Part shown: positions 40,551-55,187 of the stretch, piece after piece
How positions within the stretch are numbered: position 1 is the stretch's first letter
Layout of the letters: each line of letters starts with the position of its first letter
Source of the DNA: Owenia fusiformis
Taxonomy: Eukaryota > Annelida > Polychaeta > Sabellida > Oweniidae
Assembly: GCA_903813345.2 (NCBI GenBank)
Contig: CAIIXF020000006.1
Span: forward strand, 16,620,348-16,684,347
DNA: 64,000 nucleotides
Direction of reading: 5' to 3'
Notes under the pieces: model-generated
Databases searched by the model: none
The model's input: only the letters and a program-made list of their open reading frames with translations
Told to the model about the DNA's origin: nothing
Made by a program: the position numbers and the translations under genes

Positions 40551-40741
40551 CTGTAAAGTGAAAAATGAAGTCAATTATTCATGATTTTCATAATCAGTCA
40601 GGAGCTTAGAGTGATGTTTATATTCAACAAAATACATCCTTAAGACAGGAAAAACAAAACTTAAAACTCTAATAAATACAGATAGTTAATTCACACTCTA
40701 CAACACTTATGAAAATGTTCTGGTTTGAAACCCCGGCGAAA

Positions 40742-42900
40742 AAGCATGGAATAATTCCTGATTATTCGTGAATTATTCATCAATATTCATGTAAAATATT
40801 CATGAATAATCCACCAATGAAGAATAATTATTCATGAACTATTCATGAATATGCGTGATCATCAATTTGGACACTTCCCCAAAATTCTTCAAAACTGAAT
40901 TACTGGAATATTCATGAATAAACTTTCAAGGACCCGTGAAGAATAAACAAGAACAAAAAAGAAAGAAATATCAAGGAATTTTTGAAGAATAAACATGAAT
41001 TTATATTCCTTTTTATTCTTCACATTCTGATTCAGCAAAAATCATGAATTCTTCAAGCATATGCTTGAACATCAATTTGGATATTCTTCATTATTCTTCA
41101 AAATCCTTCTATGTTCATCATTTATTACTCATTTTTCATCATATGATAACTAGCACACCTGCCATGAATTATTCAAGAATAAAGATGAATAAAAATTTTA
41201 ATTGTCGTGGAATTTTATAAGAATAAAGAAGGAGAAATTTTTATGAATCTTTAAGAATACACAAGAATGAGCATTCATGATTTTTGACGAATAAACAAGA
41301 ATTAATATTCTTCTTTATTCTTCAAATTTCTAGTAAGCAAATTCATGAATTATTCAAGCATATGCTTGAACATCAATTTGGACATTCTTCATTATTCTTC
41401 ACAATCCTTCTATGTTCATCATTTATTCCCCAAATTTTCATCATATGATAACTTGCTCACCTGCCATGAATTATTAAAGAATAAAGATGAATAGAAATCC
41501 TGATTATCAGGAATTTTTTAAGAATAAAGAAGGAGAAATCTTTATGAATCTTTAAGAATACACAAGAATAAACGTTCATGATTTTTGACGAATAAACAAG
41601 AATTAATATTCTTCTTTATTCTTCAAATTTCTAGTAAGCAAATTCATGAATTATTCAAGCATATGCTTGAACATCAATTTGGACATTCTTCATTATTCTT
41701 CACAATCCTTCTATATTCATCATTTATTCCCCAAATTTTCATCATATGATAACTTGCTCACCTGCCATGAATTATTGAAGAATAAAGATGAATAGAAATC
41801 CTGATTATCAGGAATTTTTTAAGAATAAAGAAGGAGAAATCTTTATGAATCTTTAAGAATACACAAGAATAAACATTCATGATTTTTACGAATAAACAAG
41901 AATTAATATTCTTCTTTATTCTTCAAATTTCTAGTAAGCAAATTCATGAATTATTCAAGCATATGCTTGAACATCAATTTGGACATTCTTCATTATTCTT
42001 CACAAACCTTCTATGTTCATCATTTATTCCCCAAATTTTCATCATATGATTACTTGCTCACCTGCCATGAATTATTAAAGAATAAAGATGAATAGATTAT
42101 CAGAATTTTTTAAGAATAAAGAAGGAAAAATCGTCATGAATCTCTAAGAATAAACAAGAATAAACATTCTCGTTTTTGAAGAATATATATTAATAAATAT
42201 TCTTCTTTATTCTTCAAATTTCTAGGAAGCAAATTCAAGAATTATTCAAGCATATGCTTGGACATCAATTTTGATATTCTTCAATATTCTTCACAATCCC
42301 TCTATGTTCATGATTTATTCCTCAATTTTCATCATATGATAACTTGACACTTTCCATGAATTATTCAAGAATAAAGATCCTTATTATCAGGGATTTCTTA
42401 AGAATAAATGAGAAATCTTCATGAATAAACATTCATGTTTTTGATGAATAAAGAAGAATTAATATTCTTCTTTATTCTTCAAATTTCTAATCAAATTGAT
42501 GAATTATTCAAGCATATGCTTGAAAACTAATTCTTAAATATTCATCGGTAATTCTTCAATTTTCAAACTTCCAGTCACTATTGAGTTCCCAAGAATAAAG
42601 ATGAATAAACATTCAGGATTATTATTATCACTTTAGAATAATGAAGAATAAATTCTTCATGAATAAACAAGGATTCCTTTATGATTTTTAAGAATGAAAA
42701 TATTTTAAAGAATAAATGATAAAAACTTACCTCATTTCTTTTTACTGAGTTATTCATGTATATGCATCATGGGTAGTAATCAGAAAATGCTTCATTATGC
42801 ATCACCTCAATTTTTTATCTGATGTTTGCACTTTCCCTGAGTTTCTCAAGAATAAATATGAATAAAGAATAAACAATTCAATTGAAGTTACATAGAACTG
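40742..42900. repeat. left subterminal tandem array, about 300-bp period
   Basis: The perfect palindrome CAAGCATATGCTTG occurs at 41054, 41355, 41656, 41956, 42247 and 42509 (spacings 301, 301, 300, 291, 262). Units also share CATCATATGATAACTTG and AATATTCTTCTTTATTCTTC. The central copies are nearly identical; the outer ones are decayed. Confidence 0.95.
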
Positions 42901-43019
42901 CTTTATATTATTCTTAACAAATACTGTCAAACTACAAAATGAGTGTCCTTCTACAGGAAAGTTACAAAGTTACAAATACAAGTGTCTTGTCAAGTTGCAA
43001 ATACAAGTGTCTTACGCAT

Positions 43020-45545
43020 CTACATTCTATTTTTTAAGCGTAATGCCTTTTGAATGTTAGCAATTTTTTCCTTCGTAATTTTTGGAGAAGTCTTACAATG
43101 TCTTTCCACTAAAGTTAGCACTCTGTTAACATTAGTCTGGTCTAGTGGGGGTCTAGAGCTCTCTGAACGACTTGATTTTTTCCCGGTGACACTATGGAGT
43201 ATCAACTCTTCTTCTGTGAAAAAATAGCTTACCAGCTTTTTTGTCACTGAACGGACATCACTTGCTGGTAGATGCTTAATAACATCATAAGCAATGTCAT
43301 TTTCGTCCATATGCATTGCTTTTCTTATTTCAGCAACTTGGTTCTCGAGGTCCTTTACTCTCCTCTTTAGGCTTCTAATAGTTCTAGCAGACCTATATTG
43401 AAATAAATTGGAGACATTCAAAATCACAGGTATTTTTTCATACTTTTTTCTGAAAGGTAAACATGGTCATGCAGGGGTTTCAATAAATATGTTTTCAACA
43501 GGCTTTTTTGGCGATTTCAATAGGCTGGAACTTATTTCACCAAAATTGCTAAGGACAATGAATTTTTTTCTCAATATTTGAACAGGCATACTTGTGATTT
43601 TTTGCCGTCTGCCTGACTCATTATGAAAAGGCCAGAGGGATTAAAGAAGTAGTTTAAGTAAACCTCTTTCAGTAACTAGTAATTTATGCTTGAGTTAACA
43701 ACGTGAAATAAATAGGTAAAAATTATCTTACTTGTTCCCAGAGTTTGGGGGATTTTCTTCTTCCAAGTCTTTCAATGAATGCTCATCTTGGTTGGTTTTA
43801 ATTTTTTCCCTTGATGCCTTTGCAGATCTGTTATAAATAAATTGGTGGCATATTTAAAATCTGAGGCATATTTTAATTTTATACTTTATTTCTGAAAGGT
43901 GAAACATGGTCATGCAGGAGTTTCAATAAATATGTTTTTAATAGACCTTTTGGCAATTTTAATAGGATTTCACTAAAATTGGTAATTTCTCAAAATTTGA
44001 ACAGGCTTAATTGTGATTTGAAATGGTTTTTTGCCATCTGCCTTTGACTCATGGTCAAAATGGCAGAGGGAATTCTTTGAAGTATGGTAGTTAACTTAAA
44101 GGGGCAATAAGGCTTGTAGAGAGAAAATAGGAAAATTTCAACTTTTTCTGAGCTATCAAGGCAACATTTGGCTTAACATCTTCTTTGACATACCTATTTT
44201 CTTAAAATGTATGGATAAACTATCAATTTCAGCATTAAGAAGTGTAAATTCAGTTCAAAGCTAAATGGGACGTCCACTTTTATATTTTTAAGATCCACCA
44301 TGTTTCAAGAGGAATATCAGCTGAAATAATGTTTATCTAGAGACTAGCGGGTTTCATTGTAGATAATAAAAATAGATGTTAGTCTTGATGAAGTATCCAA
44401 ACTTAAATATATTTTGACACTGGTCCATGATCGTTAAATAGCCCCTCTGCACTAATTGTTGCACCTAAATTATGCTTGACTTAACAACATGAAATAAATA
44501 GGTAAAAATTATCTTACGTGTTCTCAGAGGCTGAGGCATTTTCAGAGGCTGAGGCATTTTCTGGCGAACTAGCCATATCATCTGTGTCACTCGATGAATG
44601 CTCATCTGTCATGTCTGTCTCCCTGTCCCCGGCATCTTCAATGCAACCACCTCGGTTGCGTGCGATGTTACCCCAATATGCCTTGATTAGACATATAATC
44701 TCATCTTGGGTTAAATTCTCATCAATGTACTTATCTGTCTTTTTGGCAGCTTGTACAAGCTCTGCATCGGACAATGATGCTAAAATAATAAGAGAAATTT
44801 CTCAGTCTAAAACTCAATCAGTCTCTAACTATAATGTTAGCCTGTAAGCGCAAGTCTTCAGTGATCAAAATAGAATAAAATCAACAACCCCAAAATTTTA
44901 CGGGTGACAAAGTTTTTCATCCGTCAAAATAACCTACCTGTCAATATTTCGACAGATTAAAATTAGTTCCCTTCGAATGATGACCTGCAGGCCCTTAGCC
45001 AGGATTTGCCAAGGGGGGGTTCACTTTTCAGAAAAATTCCAGGGGGGTTCACGTTGACAAAGTTGACCCAAAATCACATGAAAATGCTCAGAATGGTGAT
45101 GCATGATTTTGAAAGAATGTTTGGCCAGGGGGGGGTCCGAACCGAATCGACCCCCCCCCCTGGCTACGGGCCTGACCAAAAGGTCAAAAGTCAATCACAC
45201 GAGTCGCAACTGACAGAGAGAGAAAAGTTGTTGGGCCAAATGTGTTACAGGGCCTCAATTAATGTGCCTTTATGTCATTAAAAGGCCTTTAAGGGCCTCA
45301 TTTTTAAAGAAACTGACCCTAAATTTTCAAAATTTTGAATTCTAACAGTCTTGCTTACCTCCGATCCCCAAGCAAATAGCGTCGTGTTCTTTAGCTTTCT
45401 TTCCAGCACCAAATCTACAAACGACAAATTCACCTAGTTCTGGGCATGTTCCTTTAGATCTATTGACAAGATTCCTGGCAGGCTCGATACTTTGTGTAAA
45501 ATCTTCCACCCAAAGTAGCAATAAATAGTCTGTTTTCTCCGCCAT
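43020..45545 (-). CDS. BEN-domain protein of the EnSpm-like element, 305 aa
   Basis: Four exons: 45545-45359, 44779-44518, 43827-43732, 43392-43020. All introns are GT-AG, phases 1, 2, 2, and the total of 918 nt is open to the stop. ATG 45545 is in AAGATGGCGG context. Residues 1-62 are a compact N-terminal module (KTDYLLLLWVEDF); exon 2 is acidic (EHSSSDTDDMASS, then a doubled ENASAS repeat); residues 187-212 form a probable coiled coil (LKRRVKDLENQVAEIRK); residues about 228-300 fit a BEN domain (VTKKLVSYFFTEEELILHSV, TGKK, then VLTLVERHCKTS and a C-terminal helix). BEN domains bind DNA. Divergent from the transposase gene in the same element, it may be the partner that binds the subterminal arrays (inference). 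The domain call is by eye. Confidence 0.7.
44988..45174. mobile_element. MITE in BEN gene intron 1
   Basis: The ends CAGGCCCTTAGCCAGG and CCTGGCTACGGGCCTG are inverted copies with one mismatch, followed inward by G-runs and C-runs. 187 bp. A fragment of the same family is at 34307-34322. Confidence 0.8.
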
Positions 45546-46110
45546 CTTCTTCGAAAATTCGCGCGTCTGAAGATTGACGTAATGAAATATTAACCAATCA
45601 GCAGCAATGATGCTGTACCCAGGATGCATCGGGGAAGTGAAAGAAAATGGCAAAATTTACTCTGTGATTTTGTATCGGATTTGTTAAATATTATTATTGA
45701 TGTGCATACAAACGTAAATGTTATCCTATTTTCGGTATAAATACGTACAAAACTACAGTATAATAAGAGTAAAACAGTCTGATTTATGGAATTTACATTA
45801 AAAGTAAAGGCGCGACGGTGTAATTTCGTTTAGTTGAGGTTTCAATTTAGACAGATTAACTACTTCCGGCAAATCCGTAAAAACAATTTTAGATCAATAT
45901 TTTGATTAAAAATAACAAATCAGGTTAGTAAATTCAATCTATTTCCATGCATAGATGCCGGCAAGATTATTTTTTAGAAGGATAGCTCAATATTATATTA
46001 TTCAGATGGGACGGTCCCCTCGAAAAAAATCAAATTTAAAATTTACGTCAACGATCACGAGTCGGGGGGGGGGGTGCCGCTGAGACTCAAAATATCTACC
46101 CACATCTTGG
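45546..46110. promoter_or_regulatory. start of the divergent intergenic region of the EnSpm-like element
   Basis: Non-coding DNA upstream of the BEN gene. Together with 46376-47889 and 49203-49369 it separates the two divergent genes and must hold both promoters. No TATA box can be singled out in such AT-rich DNA. Confidence 0.3.
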
Positions 46111-46375
46111 GATTTTGTTCTCTAAAAATGAACCCGGTTTTCTTTCAAAAATAGACCCACTTCAAGGTAATTTTTAAAACACAAGACCCACTTCCGGCGA
46201 TTTTTTTCAAAAACAATACCCAGTTTTAGGATTTTTCCAAAAATAGACCCATCTCTAGGGATTTTTTCCCAGATTTTTTTTATCAAAATGAAACCTCAAT
46301 CTAGGGTTTTTTCTTCAAAATGGGACCCACACCTAGGGATTTGGCGAAAGAGTGACCCATTTTAGTGGCACGTCC
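46110..46375. repeat. minisatellite, about 38-bp units
   Basis: Seven or so degenerate units of the form AAAAATAGACCCACTTCTAGG followed by a T-run. Confidence 0.75.
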
Positions 46376-47889
46376 CCATATATTACTCGAGTCTCTAGCT
46401 TACAGCTAGATGTAACTTGATTGATTTCGTATGTTTTCCTGAAAAAATGTCATACACGCACCTTGAACTCATTTTTAATAGTTTCTATAAATATTTATAA
46501 GAATATTAATCATATTGATGTAGAAGCTTTGCTTGTCTGAATTTAGATATTTCAAAATTTCTTTTCGGAAAAACATTCAAACTCAATGGATCCGCCATTT
46601 ATACACCTCAGTGACCTCATTCGCAGAAAAATGGTGGCCATTTTAAAATGAAATTTCGTTTTGCGAAATTAAATGCTAAATACACTCGATTAAGACGGGG
46701 ATATGAGCTGATTTTCTGCAAATGTATGCATAAAGGTATGTTTCATATAATAATGACGAAACAACTGTGCGTGGTCACCATGCATTGGCAAATATTGAAT
46801 ACCACAGCTGCTGTAACAGTGGCTCAAAGCCAGATCATAGAGAAGGCTTTGGAACTAAGTAACCCATATAGATCTAGCCAATATATGGGGGTTGGTTTAT
46901 ATCCTTTCTTTGAGGTGCTTTAATGTCACCTAGGTGGTCTCTAGTGCTGGTTTTGTCTCTTGTACATTTAGTTTTGCGATTAGCTACTCTTGTGGTTTGT
47001 AGAGTCCTTTTTTGTTTTATATAAAATCCTGTACAGGTTGGCTAAGATCATATTCATAACTGCGATTGTTATTCACATTGTCGTGCAGCCATTTCAAAAA
47101 AATATGAGACATCTCATATCAAATCATATCTCATTCGAAGCGTCTTGTTATTCTTTAACTTTCTTATCACTAACGAATCGTATACAAACAATTAGACAAA
47201 ATAGTGATATATATTCAATATTGGTGGAAGGCTGTCCAAATCTGAATGTGCTTCTGTGATCCGAGAAATGTGAAGTCAGCATTACAATTATATTTGAATA
47301 CACAGGATCCCAGAACAAGATTCGGTGTCTCATCTTGAGGAATATTTATTGAGCTTCTGATCCCTACTACAAAAGAATTTTGCTGGCATCTATGTTTCCA
47401 TGTACGTTTTTACTGAAAATACATGTCGCATTTCTAAATTGACTTTTTCCTAGAAATTCAAAATTTTGAACCTTAGTCTACAGCACATACAGGGAACAGA
47501 TAGTACACTGACTGAAATTCTCTCTGTACCCAGTAGGTAAATTTTGTTCGGTGTACTAAAACTATCTGTTCCCAGGCCTATGGTCTACACAGCCCTAAAG
47601 GCTAGAGTTGGAGGAAATGTAAGTTGGTAGTCGACTTTTTGTGATTTTGATGTCATTTCTGCATTTCACAATCCACAATCGTGTGATTCATAATTGAAAA
47701 TTAACATGTGACTCTATTGAGCGTTGCAACAAAATTCACCCTGACCTTTACACCAGATTCAAATTTGTCCCACTCACTTTCGATTTATATTTCTCACATG
47801 ACAAAACAATAATCAAAATCAAAAAAGTAGGAGATATATCTAATTTGGTAAATTTTGTATCAGGATTTCCCATCACAAAAAATAATGAC

Positions 47890-49202
47890 TGCAGACTTGC
47901 CAACCTAAAATGAAAAATTTGCGTGAGATTTTCAAAAAATTGCGGTACTTTTACATGAGAGTTCTCCAAAATACGGTAGTTTTTGCGGGAGATTTTTGAA
48001 AAAACTAGAGTTTTTTACGCGCGATTTTTGAAAAACTGGAGTTTTTAAGGGAGAGTAGTTTTTAAGTAAATTTTATAAAAAGTGGTAGTTTTTGCGGGAG
48101 ATTTTTGAAAAAACGGAAGGTTTTGCGGAGGATTTTTTAAAATACAGGAGTTTTGCGGGAGATTTTTGAAAAACGGGTGTTTTTGTGGGAGATTTTAAAA
48201 ACGGCGATTTTTATGGGAGATTTTTGAAAAAAGGGAGTTTTTACGGGAGAGTTTTGATAAAACAGGAGTTTTCGTGGGAGAGTTTTGAAAAAACGGCAGT
48301 TTATGTGGGAGAGTTTTGAAAAAAACGGCAGTTTTTGCGGGATATGATTTTGAAAATAAACGGAAGTTTTTGTGGTAGACTTTTGACAAACGGTAGTTTT
48401 TGCGGGAGATTTTTGAAGAAACTGTAGTTGTTGCGGAAGAAAAAATGGGAGGAGCAGATTTTATTATTCTAGAAGCTGATTAAACATGCGTAAAATGCAT
48501 GGGGCGTGCTACCACTGATCATATCAGACTAAATCATGCAAAGTATGCAAACTATAGACTCTAAAAAGTAGTTCTTATCATTTCCATCCCGTTTTGAACG
48601 ATATCGCCGATTCATACATGAATCTGTGACATTAAGGATGCAGTACAGGGTTAGCGTAGCTTACGTTCCAGATATTAGATTATGCTCATATTTTTCGCAC
48701 TGTATCACAATGATGTTATCATTAGCCAAGTGCAATATAAAGAGGACTGACCAGCTGGTTACTACAAGATAAATTATTTACATTGACGGAATTTTTGAAA
48801 AAGATTTCTATGCATTTTTCATTTTCGGGTCACAGTTTCTTCATAAATATTGACTATGTCCAATAGAAACTTCATCTACCGACAGAAATATAAACCATCT
48901 ATATTACGGATCCATAAAAATGATAAATGGCATGCAAACAGTTAAAAATGTATAAACATATATAAAATGTGCAAACAGATAAGAAAATTGTTGAAAAAAT
49001 GAAACGGTCCCCGAGTTTGCAAAATGTAACGCCCAATGCGGAAATCGAACCGAAGACCTTTCGTTCCCAAGAGAGATTTTAGTAGAAATACGGTACGGGA
49101 GTGTTTACGGGAGAAAACGGTACAGGAGTTTTGTTATTTTTTACGGAAAAACAAAAAATTTACGGGAGATTCCCGTAAAAAAACGGGAGGTTGGCAAGTC
49201 TG
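47890..49202. mobile_element. TIR element built on a roughly 33-bp minisatellite
   Basis: CAGACTTGCCAACCT (from 47891) and its exact inverse AGGTTGGCAAGTCTG (to about 49202) are 15-bp ends. The flanks repeat GACTG on both sides, a possible 5-bp target duplication. Units like TTTTTGCGGGAGATTTTTGA fill 47925-48440 and, diverged, 49075-49175. It is inserted 5' of the transposase gene. Confidence 0.7.
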
Positions 49203-49369
49203 GACTGCAAACTTACATTTCTGCTGAGAATAGATATATGAGACTGGCGCCAAATTTTGCTCCCCAACTTCTTACTTTCACTGTGCAGCTTGTGGATTGA
49301 TTATATACATATCATCATAAAAATTTGTCTTTTTTATTTTGCAGTTAATAGCTTGACTCACCATTTATT

Positions 49370-52300
49370 ATGAATGAATGTGAGAATACAAACCAAAACA
49401 GTCCAGGTTTCTTGGTTCTGCAGGAAAATGGAAAGAAACAATTTGAGTGCAGGGAATGTAGGCGGACTTTTACAAATAAAAGAAACATTGAAATGCATCT
49501 ACATTCAAGTCATGGCTATTGTAAGTTTCCATTTTTGAAGTTCAAAAAGTGGTTTTTGAAGGACTTTTTGTTGGAAAATTGTGAATTTGTTTAAAACTAA
49601 CTTTTAGAGGCCACACGTATCAATCGCCCATATACAAATGCATGTAGCATTCTCACATAAATAGTCATCATAGTAGTCATATACTATCAGATACATGAAG
49701 ATTGATCCACTAGAACTGATGAATATTCAAGTTCAAAAGAACCTTTTTCTATACTTGCTATGGTATCTGACCCGATGTAGCCACCTTGTGGTGAAATTGG
49801 TAACTACCTACTGGCATCTGGGTAATTAAAACTCGATGAATTTTATAATTTATTTTTGAATCCATTTCCCATTGTGGAGTTAACAAATATATTTTCTTAC
49901 AGCTTCACCAGTGAAGAAGTATAAATTGTACGAAAACAAACCAGGATTAAAAGAGAATGTACCAAGGAGTACCGTTTGGTATAGAGCAAATAGGAGTAAA
50001 TTGGAGAAAGAGCAGGAAGGTAAATAATTTAGATTTATGTAACCTCATCTTTTAAGCTCACATGGGTCACGGGCTTATCTACCTTGATCCAATCTTATGT
50101 TACTATTGTTTTAGTATAGGATTCCCTAATATATAAATATGCTTATTCGGCAAGTTTGAAAAGTGCAGCCCCTCTCTATAGGGAAAACCTCTGAACAAGG
50201 AAACTTTCCTCCAGTCTCAAGAGCATTCCCTGTTCGCAGGTTTTACTGTACATATAATTTAATTAAATTGTGCACTTTTCAGGTACAGATGATCAAGGGC
50301 CAGATGGAGAACGTCAAAATGATCAGAAAGATTCACAGGATGACATCACCCCTGAGTATTCAGACAAGGCCTATACAATTTCTGAAAAAAGTGAAACCAC
50401 TAGTATTGAACTTGAGAATTCTATTGCTATTTCATCACTCGTGGGTAATGGTACTGTAGTCCAATCTGTCACTCAATTATCAGATTACAATCATGGTGAC
50501 AAGATTGATGAAAGTTCATCTGCAACTGACTATGTTAATGGTAGCGAGCCATATGGCAAACTTGATATTGACTCAGACTCAACATCTATGAACTCGCATT
50601 CAGAATTGGACTCTGACGGTTATGAAAATATATTTTCTGACTCTGAATTTGATTCTTATAGTGATTCAAGCATATACAGTTGTTCATCTGATTCGGAGAC
50701 TGAACGCACATCCTGTTCAGAAATTGAAAATGACTCACTTGATCTTGACAAAGATATAATTGGCAGTGATGTGTATTTAAAGATACTGTCATGTTTTATT
50801 CGCAATGAACTTTCAGCTACAGCTTGCAAAGATGTGTTACAAACATTTCAGAAACTAACTCCAGAATCTCAGGTTTGGAATCAAATATCATATGACAAGA
50901 TATGGAGCATAGTGGATAATGTTACCAAGCAAATTCATTATTGCCCAGATTGTAGCAGGATATTTCCCGAGGATGACGTTGACTGTGTGGAATGTCCGTG
51001 TGGTGGTCTAAGATATATTGGTACAGCAGAGGAACAGAGAAAAGCTAATCGACAACCATGCAAAAAGTTTGTGTTTCTTGATCCAAAGAAATACATAAAG
51101 GACCTACTTGAGCTACCAGGTAAAGTATTATTGGAATGTTTCAGTTCAATTGAATAATTTGGCATTATTTTCTAAAATCCTACTTTTCAAGATGGCCACT
51201 GAATTTCAAAATGGCGGCCATTTTCCCTTAAAAAAAAACGTAATCTTTGATAACTTAAATACCAGTGAACGGATTTGGTTCAAATTTTATATGATGATGC
51301 CTAGGGACAAAGTAGATCTGTTCGAGTAAGAATTTTCAAGATGGCAGCTGAATTTCAAAATGGCGGCCATTTTTCGTAAAAAAAATAATCTTTGATAACT
51401 CAAATACCAGTGAACGGATTTGGTTCAAATTTTATATGCTCATACCTAGGGACACAGTAGCTCTGTTCAAGAAAGAATTTTCAAAATGGCCACTGAATTT
51501 CCAAATGGCTGCCATTTTTATAAAAGAAAGTAATCTTTGATAACTCAATTGCTAATTGACGCACAAGACTGTGGGTCCTTTATTACATTGTCCTAATTAT
51601 CTTTTACAGGAACTTATTTTATTTATCTTTTACAGGAATGTGGGATGGCCTACAGAAAAACAAAGGAGTCATACTCGAACGCTATGAAACTAGTGATGGG
51701 GTACTAAAAGATGTTACAGATGGTGAGGTCTACAGAAACCTAATAAAAACTGGATTTTTATCAAATCCTCACAATATTAGTGTCATGATGAATACAGATG
51801 GTGTTAACCTCTATAAATCAACAGGTGTTGAAATATGGCCGATTTTCCTATCAGTGACTGAACTCCCTCCTGCAGAGAGGTTTGCTCGTGAAAATATGAT
51901 CCCAGCTAGTTTATGGCAAGGAAAGGGTAAGCCACCTTTCCAACAGTACATGGAAGTATTCTCATCGGAAATGAACAAACTATATACAGAGGGCATAGAT
52001 ATTCATGTAAATCAAGAAATGATAAATGTGAAAGTAGTAGTCATTACATCACCAGCAGACCTACCAGCTAGGGCAAATATGATGAACATGACATATTATA
52101 ACGGCCAGTATGCTTGCACAACTTGTGAAATACCAGGCAAAACTGAAGTACAAGGTGGTGGACACACTAAAGCATTTCCAGCCCAGCACACCTACAAATA
52201 CAGAACAGACAAGGAGATTCGCGATTGCATGACAAAAGGCCAAGAGAAAAAAAGAATCCTGGGTTTTAAAGGTAAATCTGGGCTCTATGATCTGAAAGGA

Positions 52301-53386
52301 GTGGACTTGAGCAAACTTTGCCCACCCGACTACATGCACTGTGTCTGTATGGGTGTAATCCCAAAAATTAATAAAAGGTGGTTTTCTTCTGAAAACAGCA
52401 ATGAAAGTTACCATGTTGGTAAAGAAATAAAAGAAATTTCAAGAAGAATGCAGTATATTAAGCCACCAAACATGATAGAAAGGTTACCACGAAACCTGGA
52501 GAAACATTATTTACACTTCAAGGCAACTGAAAATCAAACATGGATGCTTTTTTATGCAGTACCTTGCCTCGAAGGAATCCTCCCTAAGAAATACTTGGAC
52601 CATTTCAAAAAACTCTCTGAAGGCATACACATTTTGCTTGGTGACAGTATAACTACAGAACAAATTAACAGAGCAGAACTTCTCCTCAAAGAATTCTACG
52701 TTGAATACCCCAAGCTATATCCCCCTGGAGACTGTACATTGAACTTGCACTACATTGGAGCCCATTTCGGATATTGGGTCCAACAATTGGGACCATTGTG
52801 GAATTGGAGCTGCTTTCCCTATGAAGATTCAAATGCACATATATTAAAAATGTGCCATGGAACAGGGGATGTAACAACACAGATAATGAGGCAAAAAACA
52901 GCTGAGATTAAAATAAGGACACAAAATCAACCAGTCAAAATCAAAGAGTTGAATACAACTGAGGAAAAACTTAAAATACATGGTAAAACAAGGCCATTAT
53001 CTGATTCTGATCATGATCTGGACTCTGTGCCTCAGAACTGTACATCAGTGGCTTCACGAATCTCCATAAATGGAGAGATGTTCTACTCTGATGAGTATGC
53101 ACGCATGAAGAGGAGAATTTGTAACTGTGTGGAATTAAAAAATGGAAAACGTGGTTTCATTAAGAGGTTTGTTACTGATGGCAAAGAAACACATTTTGCA
53201 GTAATTGATATGCTCAGAGTGCAGAGAGGTTCAACTTATGCAAATAAAGCAAAACCTTCAGGGAAAACAGAGCTGTATCACATAAGTGAGCTAAAGAGAA
53301 AACTTGTTTTAGTTCAGTGTGGAGAAAATATGCAAATGTATGTTCTAGCAATGCCTAATGGCATTGGACGCTCCGTTTTCAAATAA
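49370..53386 (+). CDS. Tnp2-type (EnSpm/CACTA) transposase, 951 aa, four exons
   Basis: Exons 49370-49520, 49903-50019, 50283-51119, 51636-53386; all introns GT-AG, all phase 1; 2856 nt open to TAA. A further acceptor (TTTTGCAG) at 49344 suggests a 5' UTR exon upstream. Residues 25-48 are a C2H2 finger (C27, C30, H43, H48). About 160-250 is Ser/Asp-rich. A Cys-rich knuckle (YCPDCSRIF, CVECPCGG) precedes the Tnp2 core. Likely catalytic acids: D423 (MNTDGVNLYKS), D510 (SPADLPARANM), D600 (LCPPDYMHCV) and E765 (SCFPYEDSNAH), in the order of Tnp2 transposases. Other core marks are ELPPAERF, YACTTCE, GPLWNWSCF and KMCHGT. A C-terminal module (about 845-945) follows. No stop or frameshift: a potentially active transposase. 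The DDE assignment is by motif, not structure. Confidence 0.88.
51187..51550. repeat. tandem repeat in transposase intron 3, about 147 bp, 2.5 copies
   Basis: GAATTTCAAAATGGCGGCCA and variants at 51200, 51350 and 51495; each copy also carries ATCTTTGATAACT and GAACGGATTTGGTTC. Confidence 0.9.
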
Positions 53387-53961
53387 AGCATCTGTTCGGG
53401 CGATAACTGAAATATTTTCCATTGTGTTCCTTACACCATATTGAACATAATATTCACATGAAATTGACTTTTATAAAGTTCTTATGCATTGACAATAATC
53501 ATAATTCTTGAATATTAGAATATTTGTAGAATATTTTCCAGGACTTAGATATTTCACTTTATTCTGAAAAAGCTCTGCAAGTGTTGCCAGGATGAATATA
53601 TATTGAATATTAAATACACAGTAAAATAATTTGTATCTTTAATACAAAATAATGTTTTATTTTGAATAAATTCTGTAAGTGTTCTTAAACCTAGTACATA
53701 GCGTTCTTGAACCTAGGTAAATAACAATTTTATGTAATAAAACATACTATAACATACTAGTATGTTGCTGTTGGATTCAAATACAATTTCTTACAATATA
53801 CTTAAATACTTTTTGAACTATAATTCAGAATTCCTGTTATTCTGAAGATAATTCTTGAATTTATATATATATATATAATAATAATATGTATAAAAGTCAA
53901 AATTCTTAGTGTACATACTAAATATAATAAAATAATTTGAAATAAAAGCAGAGAAATTCTT
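53387..53961. other. 3' flank of the transposase gene
   Basis: AT-rich sequence with several AATAAA matches; the polyadenylation site cannot be chosen. A TA microsatellite lies near 53860-53875. Confidence 0.35.
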
Positions 53962-54022
53962 CCTACATGTTTCTTTATTTAAACATCTTTCTTGAAGATT
54001 TTTAAATAAAGAAACATGTAGG
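53962..54022. terminator. 22-bp perfect hairpin
   Basis: CCTACATGTTTCTTTATTTAAA (53962-53983) and its exact inverse (54001-54022) are separated by 17 nt. It marks the border between the transposase 3' region and the right array. A transcription-end role is only a guess; it could also be a recombination or protein-binding structure. Confidence 0.4.
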
Positions 54023-55176
54023 AAACATGTGGTGAAAAAGTGAAGAATATCTGAGAACATATTTTTTAGTTCTTCATTATTATTCAAATATCCTTCAAAG
54101 AAGTAGGTGAAAATAAGAAGAATTTCCAAGATTACCAATAATTCAAAATGTTCTTTGTTATTCTTAAGATATTCTTCAAATAAGCTGGTGAAAAATTGAA
54201 GAATATCTAAGAACACATAAGTTCGTCATTATTATTCAAATATCCTTTAAATAACATGGTGAAAATATGAAGGATTTCCAAGATTACCAGTAGTACAAAA
54301 TGTTCTTTATTATTCAACAAATATTCTTCAAATAAGGTGGTGAAAAATTAAAGAATATCTAAGAACATAGAAGTTCTTCACTATTATTCAAATATCCTTT
54401 AAACAAGGTGGTGAAAATATGAAGAATTTTCAGGATATCGAACAATACAAAATGTTCTTTATTATTCTTCAGATATTCTTCAAATGAGGTGGTGAAAATG
54501 TGAAGAATATCTGAGAACATTGTAGTTCCTCATTATTATTCAAATATCCTTCAAACAAGTTAATGAAAATATAAAGAATCTCCAAGAATACCATAACTAC
54601 AAAATGTTCTTCATAATTCTTCAAATATTCTTCAAATGAGGTAATGAAAAATTGAAGAATATCTAAGAACATAGAAGTTCTTCACTATTATTCAAATATC
54701 CTTTAAACAAGGTGGTGAAAATATGAAGAATTTTCAGGATATCCAACAATACAAAATATTCTTTATTATTCTTCGAATATCCTTCAAATGAAGTGGTGAA
54801 AAAATGAAGAATATCTGAGAATATTTTAGTTATTCATTATTATTCTCTCATTCCTTAAACAACATGGTGAAAATATGAAGAATTTCCAAGATTTCAAGAA
54901 ATAGAAAATGTTATTCATTATTATTCAAATATTCTTCATTCAGGGTGGTGAAAATATGAAGTATTTTGAAGAACATGAAACATTCTTTATTTTTCTTCAA
55001 TTATTCACCATAGAATTTGAAGAATATTCAAGAACATAAATTATTCTTTATTATTCTTCAAAAATACAAGAATATGGTTAAATCTTTATTCTTCACAATT
55101 TATCTCGATATTACAATATTCATCACACCTGAATATTCATGAATAATTCATGAATATTCATATCACAAGAATATCA
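54010..55176. repeat. right subterminal tandem array, exactly 152-bp period
   Basis: ATTCTTCAAAT-type markers occur at 54171, 54323, 54475, 54627, 54779 and 54931, each exactly 152 bp apart. Each unit is itself two related halves of about 76 bp (ATCCTTCAAA...GAAGAATTTCCAAGA and ATTCTTCAAAT...GAAGAATATCTAAGA). It is not homologous in unit to the left array, although both are rich in GAAT/ATTC. From 55010 it decays into ATTCATGAATAATTCATGAA before the end. Confidence 0.95.
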
Positions 55177-55187
55177 TTTCGCCGGGG

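Follow-up and report, generated by a model that had tools for sequence, protein, structure and literature searches.

Plant Spm elements need two of their own products, TnpA and TnpD; passages of PMC1636069 add that TnpA also acts on the promoter and that TnpD stabilises the binding of TnpA to DNA. The same passages describe the animal element SmTRC1, in which a CCC core was suggested at the ends, 2-base-pair (bp) repeats were found at 7 of 14 copies, and extra proteins matched nothing known and were expected by the authors to have a TnpA-like DNA-binding role. That report (2006, PMC1636069) appeared before the BEN domain was described (2008). What animal CACTA/EnSpm elements use as their second protein has been a gap. 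We followed up a preliminary description of a 64,000-nucleotide stretch of the annelid Owenia fusiformis (assembly GCA_903813345.2, contig CAIIXF020000006.1, positions 16,620,348 to 16,684,347), here called the window. Positions 40731-55187 of the window were found to be a whole cut-and-paste transposable element, in which a transposase gene and a gene for a BEN-domain protein lie head to head between 11-bp ends (Table 1). This is probably a young, apparently autonomous two-gene TRC-like transposon whose BEN protein would take the TnpA-like role, a role that is motivated but unproven. TnpA binds short motifs repeated near both element ends; to our knowledge, it is not a BEN protein. The BEN protein is a concrete candidate for the second component, having a recognisable DNA-binding domain.

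The preliminary description had joined exons into open frames of 951 and 305 codons, placed head to head between tandem arrays and an 11-bp inverted end motif. This arrangement was confirmed: the exon joins of both genes fell on predicted splice sites with GT..AG introns and consistent phases, and the window held CCCCGGCGAAA exactly twice, inverted, compared with no occurrence in 100 shuffles. The terminal bases of the element were CCCCGG..CCGGGG. Profile searches, which had been proposed as a check, matched the 305-residue protein to Pfam BEN (PF10523; E 7.5e-11, 42.5 bits, cut-off 23.2) and the 951-residue protein to Transposase_21/tnp2 (PF02992; E 1.5e-15, 57.4 bits, cut-off 28.6); DUF1258 reached 28.5 bits on the transposase, under its cut-off of 33.1. 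The smaller protein was made up of an N-terminal part, an acidic linker, a stretch that resembled a coiled coil by eye, and the C-terminal BEN domain. When the window transposase was aligned with relatives 42% and 32% identical to it, D423, D510 and the CxxC were kept in all three proteins, and the H(4)H and E765 in both of those reaching so far. Judged by sequence alone, the protein carries an acidic triad of the EnSpm type, in which C(2)C and H(3-4)H lie between the second D and the E; the order D, D, C(2)C, H(3-4)H, E is given for EnSpm, Mirage, Chapaev and Transib in PMC12730594.

The genome searched comprised 498 Mb (contigs are given as C with a number, the window being C6:16620348-16684347). 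Searches scored the best candidates exon by exon, and the counts are lower bounds. At least nine two-ended copies of the element (family 1) were recovered, and both genes were present in all nine. The window-type BEN exon was found at 100% identity in 9 places, as was the transposase exon. The 25-bp left end occurred without mismatch at 10 genomic places and the right-end pattern (at most 3 mismatches) at 16, 9 of which were paired with a left end; C7:32808690 was a left-end fragment, identical over 1413 bp. Seven copies measured 14.45-14.46 kb, one 16.0 kb (C9c, C9:20332428-20348446, +1.6 kb) and one 18.6 kb (C1b, C1:26120971-26139564, +4.1 kb). The ends were alike across copies, except that 3 of the final 4 right-end bases were changed in copy C7. 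All 8 coding exons were letter-identical to the window in the 8 other copies. Base-by-base comparison covered the regions of the two genes. Over the 2737 bp around the BEN gene, five copies had no noncoding difference from the window, C6a had one substitution, C1a one indel, and C9c an insertion in BEN intron 1. Over the 4.2 kb around the transposase gene, the window was separated from all 8 others by a 2-bp indel in intron 3 (two extra A in an A run of the window copy), and C6c had one substitution. The identical exons and near-identical noncoding parts in these regions indicate that family 1 spread very recently. The preliminary description had named copies that lacked the BEN gene or ended elsewhere, and a BEN gene of the host outside the element, as observations that would refute it; no two-ended copy lacked the gene, the ends were the same but for C7, and no host copy of the BEN gene was seen among the places listed.

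The BEN gene might instead be a separate host gene or a nested element that lies between the ends by coincidence, and insertions into the element do occur, C9c being about 1.6 kb longer, with an insertion in BEN intron 1, and C1b being 4.1 kb longer. However, the distance from the left end to the start of the BEN profile match was exactly 2310 bp in all nine copies, whose flanking DNA differed. This fixed spacing refutes such an origin, to which we attach practically no weight.

An exact 2-bp target duplication was present in five of the nine copies (window AA, C1b TG, C9a TC, C9b CG and C9c CT); the chance of five or more was P 2.3e-4. Empty sites, another of the proposed checks, were found for two copies. 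Copy C9c lies inside a minisatellite, and when the element and one CT were removed, the unit aligned without gaps to its neighbour over 40 bases, of which 2 were mismatched. Copy C9b lies inside a dispersed repeat. Its joined flanks, with one CG, gave matches that spanned the junction at no fewer than 38 other places, 33 of which extended over at least 175 bases, among the best 40 of 1535 candidates (2 of the 40 being the flanks themselves). In the 3 sites examined, the insertion point was uninterrupted and only one CG was present; a gap of 1 base lay a few bases off. The empty sites of C9b and C9c show that the ends are precise and that the target duplication is 2 bp long.

On C4 and C12, the transposase search gave one further match each, both 43% identical, and these represent a second family. 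The two copies were 98.8% identical over 3.8 kb and 99.0% over 5.9 kb, with approximately 415 bp more between the blocks in C4, and the C4 copy was 10.05 kb long. Their likeness ended abruptly at CCTTGTCGAAA and CCTTGGTGAAA, the flanks were different, and duplications (AT and TA) were present in both full copies. The family-2 transposase was 41-43% identical to that of family 1 and scored 38.0 bits with Transposase_21 and 37.3 bits with DUF1258, over the cut-off of the latter (33.1). Head to head with this Tnp2 gene lies a BEN-like gene with 3 predicted exons and 263 residues; its intron phases, 1 and 2, are those of family 1, which has one extra small exon (phase 2 to 2). The last exon matched the window BEN exon with E 3e-11 in the locus comparison and E 5.7e-10 in the genome search, and the spliced BEN proteins of the two families matched one against one with E 6e-17, acidic linker included. 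The predicted model of the family-2 partner had a mean predicted local distance difference test score (pLDDT) of 73.6, and its 12 best matches in the PDB were all BEN structures (BANP, Bsg25A, Insv, BEND6, NACC1), with probabilities of 0.85-1.00 and E values of 0.12-1.9, none under 0.001. A BEN fold of this partner is thus supported by the predicted model. Two damaged family-2 copies were recognised by the end pattern, C10:35642303-35647984 with a BEN piece and the right half of a copy at C2:30.97 Mb with a BEN exon. Both genes belong to the mobile unit, with intact identical exons in nine copies and the pair kept in a diverged second family.

Transposons do capture host genes, and other BEN-like loci are present in this genome; the BEN gene could on these grounds be a passenger of no use to the element, taken up from the host by chance. 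Against this stand the same pair, the head-to-head order and the intron phases in families whose transposases are 42% identical. Identity between the families by codon position was 0.51/0.57/0.31 over 112 codons of BEN and 0.55/0.65/0.36 over 555 codons of the transposase, a pattern that points to selection on the protein in both. Among the 16 BEN-like places listed outside family 1, none exceeded 55% identity over more than 47 residues (top 69% over 47 residues), and no near-identical host copy of the family-1 BEN gene was seen there. The presence of the same gene pair in both families indicates that the BEN gene is an inherited part, and chance capture is very improbable.

The pairing was also examined beyond family 1. 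With the nine family-1 copies dropped, 17 BEN places merged to 16 and 30 Tnp2 places merged to 21, 5 of the 16 BEN-like loci lay within 15 kb of a Tnp2-like place, compared with 0.02 expected. Two of these five were the full family-2 copies, and a third (C2:11.0 Mb) carried a family-2-like BEN piece. A locus on C2 (10.95 Mb) was considered as a third family. Its BEN and Tnp2-like parts are 2.8 kb apart on the same strand, with pieces of open reading frames from another type of transposon seen between them by eye. It was not counted, since Transposase_21 scored 20.4 bits, under the cut-off, and since the BEN part was 54-56% and the Tnp2-like part 32-34% identical to those of the window, likenesses that fit one history poorly. 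The locus at C3:8.25 Mb was a decayed relative. Three BEN-like exons 35-54% identical to that of the window, at C10:31367876, C10:31370246 and C12:16773596, had no relative of Tnp2 in the 15 kb around them; they may belong to host BEN genes or be left over from older elements.

The distribution of short motifs near the ends bears on what the BEN protein might do. All 11 occurrences of the palindrome TTCATGAA in family 1 lay near an end, at most 2 kb from the left or 60 bp from the right one; besides the left group in Table 1, two started at 55136 and 55147, and none was found across the approximately 12.5 kb between the groups. Of the 256 palindromic 8-mers, family 1 had TTCATGAA and family 2 TTCTAGAA as the commonest near the ends. 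When each array was reduced to a single unit, family 1 had 9 TTCATGAA in 1385 bp, whereas no palindrome exceeded 4 in 500 shuffles; family 2 had 11 TTCTAGAA in 2582 bp, compared with at most 6 in shuffles. The two palindromes share the frame TTC..GAA, with the middle two bases swapped, and make a plausible pair of candidate binding sites. BEN proteins are reported in PMC7764960 to bind short palindromes (CCAATTGG, and ACATGT with core CATG). NACC2 is reported there on a non-palindromic site, indicating that a palindrome is no requirement for BEN binding. BANP oligomerises via a coiled coil, according to PMC11472053.

We propose that the Tnp2-type DDE transposase would cut at the CCCCGG..CCGGGG ends and insert the element with a 2-bp target duplication. 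The BEN protein would most likely bind the arrays of short motifs beside the ends, with TTCATGAA as the best candidate and TGAAGAATA as the second, and its dimers or higher oligomers would coat the ends and hand them to the transposase. It would thereby pair the ends, aid the transposase and control expression of the element itself, as TnpA does for maize Spm. We infer DNA binding by the BEN protein, its motif, its part in excision, and expression. The TnpA-like role draws support from the second family with its like gene pair and from the clustering of palindromes close to the ends. A broader proposal, that an animal CACTA-type lineage uses a BEN protein instead of TnpA and that its subterminal palindromes co-evolved with it (TTCATGAA versus TTCTAGAA), is tentative, and we put it at somewhat less than an even chance.

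Alternatively, the BEN protein might take no part in transposition and protect or regulate instead, as a repressor, activator or insulator at the promoter of the element or in host chromatin. Host BEN proteins are described in literature abstracts as chromatin and boundary factors, and since the two genes are divergent, a single protein bound upstream of both could control the pair. However, all 11 TTCATGAA lay near the ends and none between the genes. Plant TnpA, moreover, has both roles in the account of PMC1636069, so a regulatory function is compatible with the TnpA-like one. A protein restricted to regulation is unlikely in our judgement.

Several results weigh against the two-protein interpretation. 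TTCTTCA/TGAAGAA, the count of which is inflated by the tandem arrays, was commoner than the palindrome in family 1, with 24 per side compared with means of 1.7 and 1.0 and maxima of 9 and 4 in 300 shuffles, so that there are two candidates for the binding site. Four of the nine copies (C1a, C6a, C6c and C7) had no exact 2-bp duplication. The predicted structure of the 951-residue transposase had a mean pLDDT of only 31.5. The first exons of the two BEN partners showed a weak likeness that was reached by 60 of 2000 shuffles, and the family-2 partner scored 14.7 bits with Pfam BEN, under the cut-off of 23.2; its DUF4806 score of 19.5 bits was also under the cut-off. Finally, 11 of the 16 other BEN loci had no Tnp2 relative within 15 kb, and these may be host BEN genes or remains.

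The seven right ends that were not paired with a left end (C2:2652653, C2:19237437, C2:20625239, C6:11590185, C11:5171356, C1:32238337 and C5:4310956) had no BEN or Tnp2 match within 100 kb, among the matches listed. Over 3 kb inward, these gene-less relatives matched the end regions of the element alone, and their outermost right-end piece was 82-84% identical. They held 6-23 TTCATGAA per 3.1 kb examined. Relatives L034 and L036 had a left-end piece too, with adjoining DNA alike in both, and a 2-bp duplication (TA) was present in L034 alone. The seven may be non-autonomous elements that the proteins of family 1 mobilise.

Table 1. Coordinates of family-1 element features in the window.
Feature	Position	Strand	Details
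Left copy of 2-bp target duplication	40729..40730		AA
Left end, 11-bp inverted repeat	40731..40741	+	CCCCGGCGAAA; exact motif search
Nine TTCATGAA palindromes, left side	40799..42663		first bases 40799, 40831, 40842, 40911, 41342, 41643, 41943, 42418, 42656
Left subterminal tandem array	40978..42378		301-bp unit x 4.7, rich in TGAAGAATA/TATTCTTCA
BEN gene	43020..45545	-	4 exons, 305 residues; 45545-45359, 44779-44518, 43827-43732, 43392-43020
Last BEN-gene exon	43020..43392	-	carries BEN domain (residues 232-298)
Intergenic region of the two divergent genes	45546..49369		putative promoter location
Transposase gene	49370..53386	+	4 exons, 951 residues; 49370-49520, 49903-50019, 50283-51119, 51636-53386
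Candidate C2H2 zinc finger, transposase exon 1	49442..49513	+	FECRECRRTFTNKRNIEMHLHSSHG; 17.6 bits, under Pfam cut-off 25.2
Transposase exon 4 in frame, catalytic core	51638..53386	+	D423, D510, C529xxC532, H740(4)H745, E765 (951-residue numbering)
Transposase_21 (tnp2) domain match	51695..52165	+	
Right subterminal tandem array	54029..54976		152-bp unit x 6.2
Right end, 11-bp inverted repeat	55177..55187	-	CCCCGGCGAAA; exact motif search
Right copy of 2-bp target duplication	55188..55189		AA

Some further features of the genes were observed. A stretch of 78 bp that includes the donor side of BEN exon 2 (44466-44543) was repeated at exon 3 (43680-43757) with 88% identity, indicating that exon 3 is probably a duplicate of the end of exon 2. 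The reading frame stayed open when exon 3 was skipped. In transposase intron 3, a 145-bp repeat containing AAGATGGC and GCCATTTT was present in 2.5 copies (window 51184-51548), and arrays of units of approximately 30 bp lay between the BEN and transposase genes at 48070-48440 and 46153-46342. In family 2, a C2H2-like stretch, FECLICQKELSSKRNVQLHLVDIHG, was seen by eye alone on the transposase strand, upstream of that gene.

The preliminary description had called the element EnSpm-like, with a Tnp2 transposase. The Tnp2 domain and motifs bear this out, whereas the canonical CACTA termini and 3-bp duplications of that class were not found, CCCCGG ends and 2-bp duplications standing in their place. 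The CCC of TRC ends was present in family 1 (CCCCGGCGAAA), and family 2, which starts CCTTG, has CC alone; the 2-bp duplications of TRC elements were seen in 5 of 9 family-1 copies and both full family-2 copies. By ends and duplications, the two families resemble the animal TRC group of CACTA/EnSpm and not canonical CACTA. A DxMHxxx(L/M)G motif was present in the transposase. The metazoan motif L/V/I-D-x-L/M-H-x3-L-G was full in the C2 relative; family 2 departs from it by a P in first position, and family 1 by the same P and by an M in place of the last L.

Among the open-access literature matches listed, none describes a transposon-encoded BEN protein, Repbase reports and most subscription journals lying outside that scope; BEN domain, CACTA and transposon co-occur in one open-access paper among these matches, BEN being in its reference list alone. 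Fungal EnSpm/Plavaka elements with TET/JBP genes are alike in being CMC-type, in having an extra chromatin-related gene and in the C(2)C and H(3-4)H, but the extra gene there is a dioxygenase and the hosts are fungal; BEN is not mentioned in the main text of that paper (PMC12730594). The host BEN proteins Insv, Bsg25A/Elba1, NACC1, BANP and BEND6 share the BEN fold, as predicted for the family-2 partner, and the window BEN exon matched host BEN proteins weakly in sequence (best E 0.0066). Those are chromatin factors, whereas the BEN gene here lies inside a transposon, which links mobile DNA with a domain otherwise met in chromatin factors of the host. As in maize En/Spm, there are two element-encoded products, a Tnp2 transposase and a second protein, both needed there for transposition, but there TnpA and TnpD both arise by splicing from a single unit, according to the passages of PMC1636069. 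Maize En/Spm also has CACTA ends and, as stated in PMC4158355, 3-bp duplications, and family 1 has neither. The BEN protein is possibly the animal counterpart of the maize Spm helper protein, and nine copies with identical coding exons make its role testable by a simple excision assay. The likeness to SmTRC1 and animal TRC elements, as portrayed in those passages of PMC1636069, extends to the two D and the CxxC of a Transposase_21 domain, CCC ends, 2-bp duplications, a tandem-repeat region and further proteins without a Transposase_21 domain. In SmTRC1, however, the extra proteins are splice forms (PMC1636069, same passages), whereas here a separate divergent gene encodes the BEN domain. The new part in comparison with known TRC elements is this BEN gene on the opposite strand, whose product appears to be a regular second component of transposons of this kind.

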